This document shows, piece after piece, positions 54,470 to 64,000 of a stretch of 64,000 nt of DNA. A program made the position numbers and the translations under genes. The stretch's first letter is position 1, and every line of letters begins with the position of its first letter. This DNA comes from Mycolicibacterium sp. MU0053 (GTDB lineage Bacteria > Actinomycetota > Actinomycetes > Mycobacteriales > Mycobacteriaceae), in the NCBI RefSeq assembly GCF_963378095.1, contig NZ_OY726397.1, forward strand, positions 4,588,001 through 4,652,000, read 5' to 3'. The notes beneath the pieces were generated by a model. That model saw nothing but the letters and a program-made list of their open reading frames with translations, ran no database searches and was not told where the DNA came from.

Positions 54470-55300
54470 CTAACGCAGCGTGCCCGCATCCGCGGTATTG
54501 CGCAACAACATCGCGATCGTCATCGGGCCGACCCCGCCGGGGACCGGCGTGAGCACGCCCGCGACAGCGCGAACGGCACCGTTGACGTCGCCACACAGCC
54601 CGTTGGCTGTTCGATGGATGCCGACGTCGATCACCGTCGCACCGGACTTGACGAAATCAGCGCCGATGAGCCCCGGCACTCCCGCAGCGGCCACGAGGAC
54701 ATCGGCCTCACGGCAGACGTCCGCTAGGTTTCTCGTGCGCGAGTGGCACACCGTGACCGTGCAATCGCGTTGTAACAGCATTTGTGCCACGGGCTTCCCG
54801 ACCAGGTTTGAGCGGCCTACAACCACCGCGTGTGCACCGGCTAACGAGGTGCCGATCGAGTCCAGAAGCGCCAGGATGCCCGCCGGAGTACACGGGCGCA
54901 GCCCGGGTCGCCCGAGCGTGAGCCGTCCTGCGCTGGCCTCCGTCAGCCCGTCGACATCCTTGTGGGCCGGGATGCGGTCGATCAGCGCGGCTGCGTCGAG
55001 GTGCGGCGGCAACGGAAGCTGCAGCAGGATTCCGGTGACTCGCGAATCCGCGGCGAGTTCGTCTAGGACCTCGGCGGCCTGGATCTGGGACACGTCCACG
55101 GGCAAGTGCCGGTGGAGATCACGCATTCCCACCTCGATACAGCGTTTCCGTTTGTTGCGCACATAGATCGCTGACGCGGGGTCATCACCAACGAGTACCG
55201 TGGCCAGCCCGGGCGGTTCGTCCAGAACCCCGACCGCAGCTGCGACCTGCTTGTGGACTGTGCTCGCCTCTGCCGCGCCGTCGATGAGGATCGCGGTCAA
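54470..55300 (-). CDS. folD: Methylenetetrahydrofolate dehydrogenase/cyclohydrolase
   Basis: Bifunctional enzyme of 276 residues that interconverts 5,10-methylene-, methenyl- and 10-formyl-tetrahydrofolate with NADP. The catalytic Lys lies in [25 protein letters not shown] and the cofactor motif [14 protein letters not shown] are typical, as is the closing [16 protein letters not shown]. The TTG start at 55300 overlaps the adenosine kinase stop by 4 bases. It is the last gene of the C1 operon, linking methyl-folate chemistry with formyl-folate for PurU. Mycobacteria also carry a housekeeping folD, so this is probably a paralogue. Confidence 0.95.
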
Positions 55301-56298
55301 TCTGAGCCCACTAGATCCCGGCGCAACACTGGCGCGATGCGTTCCGAGGCATGCTCACCGTAAGTGCCTTCCAGTCGACCGAGCGCCGCATCGATGTCCA
55401 GATGCCACTGCTGGGTACCGGAGGTCTCCAACACCAGCGTTGCAATAAGCGAACCGAGCTGTGCCGCGTGAACACGCTCGAGGCCGCTGCTCACACCGGT
55501 GAGAAAGCCCGCACGGAACGCATCACCGACGCCGGTGGGATCCACGATGACCCGGGCGGGGACGGCACCGACATGATTCTCGCCCCCGTGACGGTCGGCG
55601 AGCACGCAACCATTGCCCGACAGGGTGGTGATCCGCAGCCCAACACGCTCGGTGATCTCGCCGGCGCTCCACCCGGTCTTACGGGTAAGCAGCTCCCATT
55701 CGTACTCGTTGGTGAACAGGTACTCGGCACCGTCTATCAACGCACGGCAGTTGTCGCGGTCCAACATCGGCAGCTGCTGTGACGGGTCGGCGGCAAACGC
55801 TATCCCCAGGCGCCGAGCATCTTGGGTGTGAACCAGCATCGCGTCGGGGTCATTGGCGCCCACAAGCACCAGCGCAATATCGTGTGTACCAGCCACTGGA
55901 TCGAGGCTGATGCGGGCGGCCTCGCTCATGGCACCCGGGTAGAACGACGCCAGCTGGCACTGGTCGTCATCGGTGGTGCAGGTAAAACGCGCGGTGTGCG
56001 CGGTCTCCGAAAAGTGCAGGTGGGTGCAGTTCACCCCGGCGCCTTCCAGCCAGCGCAGGTAATCGTCGAAGTCGCTGCCGACCGCGCCGACCAGCAGCGG
56101 ACGCTGACCCAGCACACCCAAGGCGAAGGCGATGTTGGCGCCCACTCCCCCTCGCCGTATGACCAGGTCGTTGACGAGAAAGCTCAGGGATAGGCGGTCC
56201 AGGTGAGTATCGACGAAATGCTCAGCGAACCGGCCCGGAAACCTCATCAGGTGGTCGGTGGCGATAGAGCCGGTCACGGCTATTGATCCTGTTGACAT
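55297..56298 (-). CDS. Adenosine kinase (PfkB family)
   Basis: Ribokinase-fold kinase of 333 residues. It starts [20 protein letters not shown] and contains [14 protein letters not shown] and FYPGAMSEA, segments that match the adenosine kinase AdoK of M. tuberculosis (Rv2202c). The anion-hole and catalytic Asp motif [16 protein letters not shown] is intact. It should phosphorylate adenosine released by AhcY, pulling the reversible hydrolase toward homocysteine. ATG 56298 begins at the family N-terminus; the open frame further upstream overlaps purU. It is 11 bases after purU and overlaps folD. Confidence 0.93.
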
Positions 56299-56309
56299 TG
56301 CCAGCCTTT

Positions 56310-62538: not shown

Positions 62539-63497
62539 TCGAGTTCCGCAGCCTCGAGCAGGCCTTGATGCAACCGTGGCGTCAAACCGGCCCGGGTGAG
62601 AATCTCGGGAACTCCGTGCTCAAATCCGAACGCCATGACATGCACGCCCGCGACGCCGGGAATCTGCGTGAGCTGCTCGATCGTCTCCGCGCACACGCGC
62701 ATACCCTCTTCGGCCACTCGATCGGAGGGCACACCGCGCAACCGCTGCTCGATCCCGCCCGAAACATTTACGCCTGGAACTTCGCAACGCAGATACTCCA
62801 GCACTCGAAGCGATCGGATTGGACCGACCCCGGCCAGCACGGCGCACTTCTCAGTGACACCCATGTCTTGCAAACGCGAGATCCACTGGGCGAACACATC
62901 CACGTCGAAGACGTACTGGGTTTGGGCGAACTCGGCACCTGCTGCGACCTTCTTGGCCAGACGTTCGGCGCGCAGGGATAGCGGTGGCGCGAAGGGGTTT
63001 TCAACCGTCCCGATCATCCATTGCGGCGACACCGAGAGGGCCTCGCCGGACATCAGCACGCCATCTTCACGGAGCGTACGGGCGAGCCAGGTCAGCTGCA
63101 CGCCGTCCAGGTCGAAGACAGGCTTGGCTTGGGGATGGTCACCCGCCCGTGGGTGGTCACCCGTCAGCAAGAGTACGTGCGGGATCTCCAGCGCACCGGC
63201 GGCAAGCAGATCGGCCTGCAACGCCATGCGGTTGCGGTCTCGGCACGTCAATTGCATCACTGGTGAAAGCCCGGCACGCTGGGCGATCACTGCTGCGCCC
63301 AAGCTCGACATCCGCACGCGGGCACCTTGATTGTCGGTCACATTGACCGCGTCCACCCAGCCGCGGAGGTGGGCGGCCTTCCGTATCAACGCATCTGCGT
63401 CAGCGCCGCGGGGTGGACCGAGCTCGGCGGTAACCGCGAACCGGCCTTCGGACAGGGCGGCTTGCAGCCCGCCGCCAGGATGTGCTTCGGCGCTCAC
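62532..63497 (-). CDS. metF: Methylenetetrahydrofolate reductase
   Basis: FAD-dependent TIM-barrel enzyme of 321 residues that reduces 5,10-methylene-THF to 5-methyl-THF (or runs in reverse). Seen are FAVTAELGPPRGAD with the catalytic-type Glu, VNVTDNQGARVRMSSLGAA, VLLLTGDHPRAGDH and AKKVAAGAEFAQTQYVFD. The GTG start at 63497 overlaps the TGA of the upstream gene by 4 bases (GTGA); an earlier start in the same frame would add about 27 unlikely residues. The protein encoded just upstream is the zinc-type MTHFR C-terminal domain partner. Confidence 0.93.
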   Translation of the reverse strand: MSAEAHPGGGLQAALSEGRFAVTAELGPPRGADADALIRKAAHLRGWVDAVNVTDNQGARVRMSSLGAAVIAQRAGLSPVMQLTCRDRNRMALQADLLAAGALEIPHVLLLTGDHPRAGDHPQAKPVFDLDGVQLTWLARTLREDGVLMSGEALSVSPQWMIGTVENPFAPPLSLRAERLAKKVAAGAEFAQTQYVFDVDVFAQWISRLQDMGVTEKCAVLAGVGPIRSLRVLEYLRCEVPGVNVSGGIEQRLRGVPSDRVAEEGMRVCAETIEQLTQIPGVAGVHVMAFGFEHGVPEILTRAGLTPRLHQGLLEAAELEC

Positions 63498-64000
63498 GAC
63501 GACACCGCTCCGCCGGTTGCCGACAAGGGTATCTGCACGCCCGCGTCTACTGCCATCGTCGCATCTCGACCCTGCCAATAATTGATCCAGGAACTTCGCC
63601 CCTGTTCCCGGTGATCAACAGGCTGCTGCAGCAACGCGAAATCGCCACGGCGGCCCGCGGCCTCGGCGCGCTCGTAGGCGAGGACCCAGACGCAACGAAC
63701 ATCGGGATGCACCTCGCAGCGGCCATCGGAGGAGACACCGCCGCAAGGACCGTTGCGTAATTGCTTCGGACATGTCATGGGACATGCGTAACCCGCGGTC
63801 GGCAGCTCACATTGGCCGCACATCTGGCACCCGTAAAGCCGTTCCTTGGACGCCTTCTCGACCGCCGAGAACGCGGCGTACATTGCCGGCCTGGCCTCCA
63901 GAAACGCTGCCATCCACCGATAGAAACGGTTCTCGCCAAGTAGCGGGTGGAGCCGGTAGGACTGTCGGGCGGATAGCCGTGGCCGAAATGGCTTTGGCCA
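63494..64000 (-). CDS. MTHFR C-terminal-domain (zinc-type) protein, 5' end cut by window
   Basis: Partner protein of MetF-like reductases. The frame is open from the window end, and about 168 residues are visible, including residues before the internal ATG at 63913 (for example HPLLGENRFYRWM), so the start is outside. The Cys-rich motif CQMCGQCEL followed by CPMTCPKQLRNGPCGG is diagnostic of the MTHFR_C family and is likely to bind an Fe-S cluster or zinc. In acetogens and other bacteria such proteins feed electrons to the reductase. It is the first visible gene of the C1 operon and overlaps metF by 4 bases; the operon may begin further upstream. Confidence 0.88.
   Translation of the reverse strand, partial: WPKPFRPRLSARQSYRLHPLLGENRFYRWMAAFLEARPAMYAAFSAVEKASKERLYGCQMCGQCELPTAGYACPMTCPKQLRNGPCGGVSSDGRCEVHPDVRCVWVLAYERAEAAGRRGDFALLQQPVDHREQGRSSWINYWQGRDATMAVDAGVQIPLSATGGAVSS

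Follow-up and report, generated by a model that had tools for sequence, protein, structure and literature searches.

A duplicate methyl-cycle and folate operon in Mycolicibacterium sp. MU0053, built on a methyltransferase and core MetE pair, with a possible role in methyl disposal

Introduction

What purpose is served by a second set of methyl-cycle genes that is packed, together with folate enzymes, into one operon of a mycobacterium? The question is raised by a stretch of 64,000 nucleotides from Mycolicibacterium sp. MU0053 (hereafter the window; G000:C1:4588001-4652000 of a single-contig genome of 5.45 Mb), whose end falls inside such an operon. A preliminary description of the window had named nine genes that would turn over S-adenosylmethionine (SAM) and folate-bound one-carbon units, and had left two purposes side by side, namely a high methylation flux for one product or the disposal of methyl groups as formate. 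Here we find that two of these genes, encoding a MidA-like methyltransferase (MT491) and the catalytic half of the methionine synthase MetE (core MetE), form the invariant unit of a module whose other genes come and go. We tentatively propose, at somewhat less than even confidence, that the operon encodes a regulated, corrinoid-free module that disposes of methyl groups from degraded compounds, by passing substrate methyl to homocysteine and on through methionine, SAM and tetrahydrofolate (THF) to formate.

Gene content of the operon

The operon comprises eleven genes on the minus strand, with the nine named ones at 54470-64000 and the rest beyond the window end, in locus L005. In order of transcription they are:

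L005:3024-4310, minus strand: PucR-type regulator, first gene of the operon, outside the window
L005:1225-3027, minus strand: HMT fusion, homocysteine S-methyltransferase joined to methylene-THF reductase (MTHFR), 600 amino acids (aa), outside the window
63494..64000, minus strand: DUF5981 (PF12225, MTHFR C-terminal or MetV-like Cys-rich subunit), Pfam 95.4 bits against a cut-off of 23; the gene is cut by the window end and the full coding sequence is L005:495-1025, 176 aa
62532..63578, minus strand: MetF, methylene-THF reductase, 348 aa, PF02219 at 118.7 bits
61063..62538, minus strand: MT491, MidA-like (COG1565) class I SAM-dependent methyltransferase by predicted structure
59973..61061, minus strand: core MetE, catalytic half of MetE only, PF01717 (Meth_synt_2) at 160.3 bits
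58742..59971, minus strand: MetK, SAM synthetase, TIGR01034 at 550 bits, cut-off 309
57228..58727, minus strand: AhcY, S-adenosylhomocysteine (SAH) hydrolase, TIGR00936 at 665 bits, cut-off 498
56310..57221, minus strand: PurU, formyl-THF hydrolase, TIGR00655 at 365.5 bits, cut-off 286
55297..56364, minus strand: PfkB-family kinase, probable adenosine kinase, PF00294 at 150 bits (longest open reading frame)
54470..55300, minus strand: FolD, methylene-THF dehydrogenase/cyclohydrolase, PF02882 at 205 bits and PF00763 at 108 bits

Adjacent genes are spaced by -7 to +14 bp, except that 199 bp precede DUF5981 and two junctions overlap by 85 and 55 bp (longest open reading frames used), and judging from this spacing the eleven genes appear to form one transcription unit. 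The tight packing or overlap previously described for the nine named genes is thus borne out (gaps of -85 to +14 bp), within an operon that is larger than was described. Family models match eight of the nine proteins. The remaining "methyltransferase-like" protein, MT491, scores below the Pfam cut-off (Methyltransf_28, 20.4 bits against 23.3) and is placed by its predicted structure (pLDDT 83.8), which matches MidA/COG1565 SAM-dependent methyltransferases. The protein called an adenosine kinase is a PfkB-family kinase that probably has this activity: its best NCBIfam match is a nucleoside-kinase model, under that model's cut-off, and the kinase of a Streptomyces SAM-recycling cassette shares 49.5% identity with it. 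Translation of the operon kinase probably starts at the ATG at residue 23 of the longest open reading frame, since homology begins at residue 27.

Further copies of many of these genes are located elsewhere in the genome, including a full MetE (3408104), MetK (2975119), AhcY (3766909), FolD (3868162), PurU (5429811) and a PfkB kinase (2237729), which presumably make up the housekeeping set. The operon proteins are 65% (MetK), 99.6% (AhcY), 45% (FolD) and 60% (PfkB kinase) identical to these second copies. The operon is therefore a duplicate set for MetE, MetK, AhcY, PurU, the kinase and FolD, as the preliminary description had supposed, and not the only source of these enzymes. The Pfam MTHFR model has two matches genome-wide, both of them operon proteins.

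One earlier claim is not supported. The cycle had been described as complete in every step, including the transfer of methyl from methyl-THF to form methionine. Core MetE has Meth_synt_2 as its sole domain above cut-off, and the folate-binding half of MetE is not present. The HMT fusion gave no B12 domain and no pterin-binding domain in a Pfam scan, and its reductase-like MTHFR domain has lost both the Asp and the Gln of MetF in 28 of 28 sequences, with three Cys retained in all 28. A methyl-THF:homocysteine methyltransferase architecture was not recognised in any operon protein, Pfam scans matched no corrinoid domain in any of the eleven, and the full MetE sits elsewhere in the host genome.

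MT491 and core MetE form an invariant pair

We used MT491 as a search marker across 84,980 species genomes; the search patterns were exact peptides, so that the resulting counts are lower bounds. At least 115 stretches matched, of which 94 encode an MT491 relative, and the best 80 of the 94 were kept as loci. These are mainly from Pseudonocardia, Actinomycetospora, Acrocarpospora, Streptosporangiaceae and Geodermatophilaceae, and include three mycobacteria, one Nocardia, four metagenome-assembled genomes (MAGs) labelled Chloroflexi/Chloroflexota and one labelled Proteobacteria. Within 301 sampled genomes of the host's own family, MT491 was found in the host genome only; DUF5981 was matched in 20 of the 301, in 19 of those only over short stretches. 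The module is thus patchily distributed.

By tblastn, the 80 loci (all of which contain MT491 by construction) include core MetE in 78, MetK in 60, MetF in 53, DUF5981 in 48, PucR in 32, the kinase in 31, the HMT fusion in 30, PurU in 23, AhcY in 16 and FolD in 14. The operon genes thus recur together in other genomes, and co-occurrence, on which the preliminary description had made its reading depend, is confirmed. Both loci without a core MetE match (L091 and L095) end inside MT491, and in all 78 loci that are not cut in this way core MetE follows MT491, at a median distance of 26 bp and a maximum of 570 bp between the aligned parts. When only loci with sufficient flanking sequence are counted, core MetE is present in 76/76, MetK in 56/71, MetF in 54/74 and DUF5981 in 47/74. 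Several loci hold MT491 and core MetE and little else of the operon. MT491 and core MetE are the invariant unit of the module, and the other genes come and go.

Both members of the pair retain the features expected of their families. MT491 carries the standard SAM-binding motif and a class I methyltransferase fold; a fold search with its extra N-terminal part (about 110 residues) gave no match. The nearest sequence relative of core MetE in the PDB is MesD (3RPD, 140 bits). Alignment to 3RPD and the consensus of relatives indicate that the zinc ligands H-C-E-C and the homocysteine-binding S/E/D are kept, with the list of these residues taken from PMC7857596. The MesX family (PF08908, DUF1852) was unmatched in the host genome, as it also was in the control genomes.

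Folate enzymes and neighbouring genes suggest the direction of flux

MetF and a separate DUF5981 Cys-rich subunit share the operon, in the arrangement of a MetVF-type MTHFR. The operon MetF retains the Asp of TGD and the Gln of TQ, residues that are kept in 40 and 41, respectively, of 41 stand-alone MetF relatives. PurU is found in 23 of the 80 loci and formate-THF ligase in eight (L041, L044, L053, L061, L065, L076, L077 and L089), and the two were not seen together in any locus. The PurU reaction is irreversible.

Extra MetE-fold proteins are encoded within about 10 kb in 24 of the 80 loci. Two of the families, c10 and c35, are clearly related to core MetE (hhalign 99.7 and 99.8%), and a third, c39, is so distantly (87%, E 4e-6). 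Family c10 (about 420 aa, with motifs HTCPGGDRDSVHSADVPY and DDCGFSPFSIDEKP) recurs near the MT491-core MetE pair in L030, L041, L044, L046, L048, L056, L060, L062, L064, L067, L069, L072 and L084, and adjoins the HMT fusion in several of these loci. A trio of genes encoding an amidohydrolase, an NHL-repeat protein and a c35 protein lies near the operon in two genera (L025:6152-9967 and L063:18266-21477).

In nine Streptosporangiaceae-type loci a Liv-type binding protein gene follows MetK; six of the nine also have an Opp-type one, six a luciferase-like monooxygenase and five a second MetE-like gene. A scan of about 27 neighbouring gene clusters revealed neither another SAM-dependent methyltransferase nor a pathway that would build an acceptor (four clusters had no Pfam match, and the scan did not extend to rarer genes). 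In MU0053 itself, the scanned neighbours of the operon look catabolic or transport-related. Taken together, the presence of PurU or the ligase, the extra MetE-fold enzymes and the importers lean towards methyl disposal. Between the two purposes originally put forward, disposal as formate is thus mildly favoured over high methylation flux.

The ahcY gene has a separate history

The operon ahcY and the second copy (in L009) are identical at 98.1% of DNA positions and 99.6% of protein positions, from codon 19 to the stop only (window 57228-58673), with differing flanks. Similar pairs are present in Pseudonocardia endophytica (98%) and Pseudonocardia sp. MH-G8 (93%), and a contig edge lies inside ahcY in 5 of the 16 loci that have the gene, as expected if it behaves as a repeat. 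The operon gene is distinct from the second copy in Nocardia pseudovaccinii and M. senegalense, whereas the operon gene of M. deserti belongs to the mycobacterial type, yet is not closest to the second copy of its own genome. On repeated occasions, then, the operon ahcY seems either to have been overwritten by the other copy or to have been recruited from it anew, and this suggests that its product carries out ordinary SAH hydrolysis.

The neighbouring island

The operon lies beside an island of putative degradation genes, to which the preliminary description had tied it by position and by a shared motif. Two features of the island stand closest to it:

52981..54099, plus strand: MetE-like enzyme, 372 aa, next to the operon but not part of it; PF01717 at 63 bits, nearest NCBIfam NF005085, under cut-off
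52796..52807, plus strand: operator-like site, flanked by the MetE-like gene and the YrbE/Mce genes

The MetE-like enzyme, a candidate substrate demethylase, is conserved next to the operon in M. deserti (70%, L016) and in Streptosporangiaceae loci L081, L082 and L088 (36-38%). Synteny in a single further species, M. deserti, supports the link by position. There, one side of the operon carries homologues of the island's ring-hydroxylating dioxygenase alpha (69% over 86 residues, to the contig end) and beta (71%) subunits, ferredoxin reductase (53%), short-chain dehydrogenase/reductase (55%) and two LysR genes (70 and 79%), and the other side carries the MetE-like gene (70%) and YrbE (81% over 178 residues, to the locus end). 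In MU0053 a distance of about 27-31 kb separates the dioxygenase set from the operon. In Nocardia pseudovaccinii, a P450 (64% to the island P450) and a MetE-like c39 protein adjoin the operon. At the thresholds used, the dioxygenase set was not seen in the other 78 loci. Because the alpha subunit is closest, among PDB entries, to naphthalene and phthalate dioxygenases, the substrates of the island are likely to be aromatic compounds.

The link by motif does not extend to the operon. The palindrome ATTATGCAYAA, which may not be the motif originally meant, is found at 19006, 32293, 39122 and 52796, all intergenic (7 strand-wise matches against 0.26 expected, for a pattern picked after the sites were seen). 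It reaches the promoter of the MetE-like and YrbE genes and was not found in L005, which holds the operon upstream region, so that the operon is probably controlled separately, by PucR, from the motif-bearing genes. M. deserti has one match at the place equivalent to 52796, a count that is not in itself unusual (14/100 shuffles). A gene for a GntR/FCD regulator (32428) has one of the operator-like sites a short way upstream of it. In the region upstream of the operon in L005 a LysR gene is divergent to it, and between VOC and cupin genes there is a 366-aa protein without any Pfam match (L005:6110-7210, minus strand) that is distantly MetE-like by profile comparison.

Discussion

These observations raise the possibility that the operon runs in a catabolic direction. 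Zinc-dependent homocysteine methyltransferases (the HMT fusion, core MetE and neighbouring MetE-like enzymes) would transfer a substrate methyl group to homocysteine to form methionine, which MetK would convert to SAM. MT491 would hand the methyl group from SAM to THF, AhcY and the PfkB kinase would regenerate homocysteine and AMP, and MetF with DUF5981, FolD and PurU would oxidise methyl-THF to formate. We infer the direction of flux, the methyl donor and the step from SAM to THF. A more specific form of the proposal is possible but doubtful. In it, MT491 would methylate tetrahydrofolate with SAM and so complete a catabolic loop that needs no corrinoid; zinc enzymes of the MetE fold would demethylate aromatic or other substrates onto homocysteine, and homocysteine would be regenerated at each turn as the methyl passes through SAM and THF to formate. 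Parts of the route have precedents: growth on chloromethane requires metF and purU (PMC3621897), and Bmt needs neither THF nor cobalamin to form methionine from dimethylsulfoniopropionate (DMSP) and betaine (PMC12366255).

Several points weigh against methyl disposal. The route would cost about 3-4 ATP equivalents per methyl group, and a narrow phrase search of the literature found no SAM:THF methyltransferase. In Phaeobacter inhibens, a core-MetE-like protein is dispensable for the use of DMSP methyl groups (PMC12366255). The mutual exclusion of PurU and ligase is weak (about 0.06, calculated by hand and ignoring cut contigs), and the gene order DUF5981-MetF-MT491-core MetE-MetK also suits synthesis, from MetF to methionine to SAM. 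DUF5981 is separable from the pair: among 23 genomes with MT491 (19 of them chosen because DUF5981 was not seen near MT491, with several MAGs among them), DUF5981 is unmatched in 11 and matched over a short stretch only in 7. M. moriokaense retains MT491, core MetE and MetK with only fragments of DUF5981 and MetF (L017:9616-9953); the reductase pair seems to have been lost there by natural deletion.

The main rival is a SAM-recycling cassette, as found beside Streptomyces antibiotic clusters, in which the operon would make and regenerate SAM for a single methylation of high demand, carried out either by MT491 or by an enzyme encoded elsewhere, and PurU would merely balance formyl-THF. The Streptomyces plasmid NZ_CP107837.1 has metK, a PfkB kinase gene, metH, metF and ahcY beside a condensation-domain gene, a published table for the furaquinocin cluster gives an identical five-gene order (PMC9686526), and MetK, AhcY and the kinase of the operon are 64, 70 and 50% identical to the plasmid counterparts; the synthetic direction of the gene order fits as well. 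However, both cassettes have an annotated methionine synthase (metH on the plasmid), the stretches of them that were compared contain no PurU, FolD or DUF5981, and the neighbours here look catabolic, with no acceptor-building genes seen among the scanned clusters. We regard this explanation, too, as doubtful. Alternatively, MT491 and core MetE might together act as a methionine synthase that depends on neither folate nor B12, by analogy with MesX/MesD; MT491 would then bring methyl from an undefined donor to core MetE, and the remaining operon would use the methionine. The constancy and closeness of the pair would be expected of such an enzyme, as would the loci with little else of the operon, and MesD, the best PDB relative of core MetE, requires its partner MesX (PMC7857596). 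Yet MT491 has the motif and fold of a SAM user, which cannot be a net source of methyl for methionine (a point that PMC7857596 makes likewise for Mmp10), and the host already has a full MetE. This explanation is unlikely. Still less probable is a role in one-carbon detoxification, by which Rieske or P450 demethylation in the island would release formaldehyde, to be carried as methylene-THF and split between formate (FolD, PurU) and methionine and SAM (MetF and the cycle). Rieske dioxygenase and P450 genes are indeed present in the island, and the cluster to which the P450 homologue of N. pseudovaccinii belongs occurs in three more loci; however, the nearest PDB enzymes of the dioxygenase are ring-hydroxylating, not demethylating, and the tight pair, the extra MetE-fold enzymes and the full SAM cycle would be left unexplained.

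If the operon does serve methyl disposal, aerobic actinobacteria would have a B12-free means of removing and burning methyl groups via methionine and SAM, opposite to the role that these normally play in anabolism. Its central step, from SAM to THF, would be a new enzyme activity, and a set of MetE-fold proteins would serve as the demethylases. Should the operon be a synthetic cassette instead, the strict pairing of MT491 with core MetE would still point to a new partner of folate-independent methionine synthases.

Relation to known systems

The pair itself has relatives on both sides. MT491 has its fold and SAM motif in common with MidA/NDUFAF7 (COG1565), and differs in its extra N-terminal part, its strict link to core MetE and its score below the Methyltransf_28 cut-off. 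Core MetE resembles the core methionine synthases (MesA-MesD and core-MetE) in being the catalytic half of MetE without the folate domain, with zinc and homocysteine residues kept; unlike these, it adjoins MT491 rather than MesX or a corrinoid protein, and belongs to a SAM/THF operon of aerobic actinobacteria.

As in the compared stretches of the SAM-recycling cassettes of the furaquinocin cluster and NZ_CP107837.1, MetK, AhcY, a PfkB kinase and an MTHFR are packed together in the operon. In contrast to those cassettes, the operon has core MetE and the HMT fusion instead of a full folate-dependent methionine synthase, adds DUF5981, FolD, PurU, MT491 and a PucR-type regulator, and is found in a setting that looks catabolic. 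The chloromethane oxidation (cmu) system of Methylobacterium extorquens CM4 (PMC3621897) likewise has dedicated duplicates of metF, folD and purU for the conversion of methyl to formate, but passes methyl to THF via the corrinoid proteins CmuA/CmuB, whereas no corrinoid domain was matched in the operon proteins, and the operon has a SAM cycle instead. The operon thus shares one half each with the SAM-recycling cassettes and with chloromethane oxidation, and departs from each in one defining feature, the full methionine synthase of the former and the corrinoid proteins of the latter.

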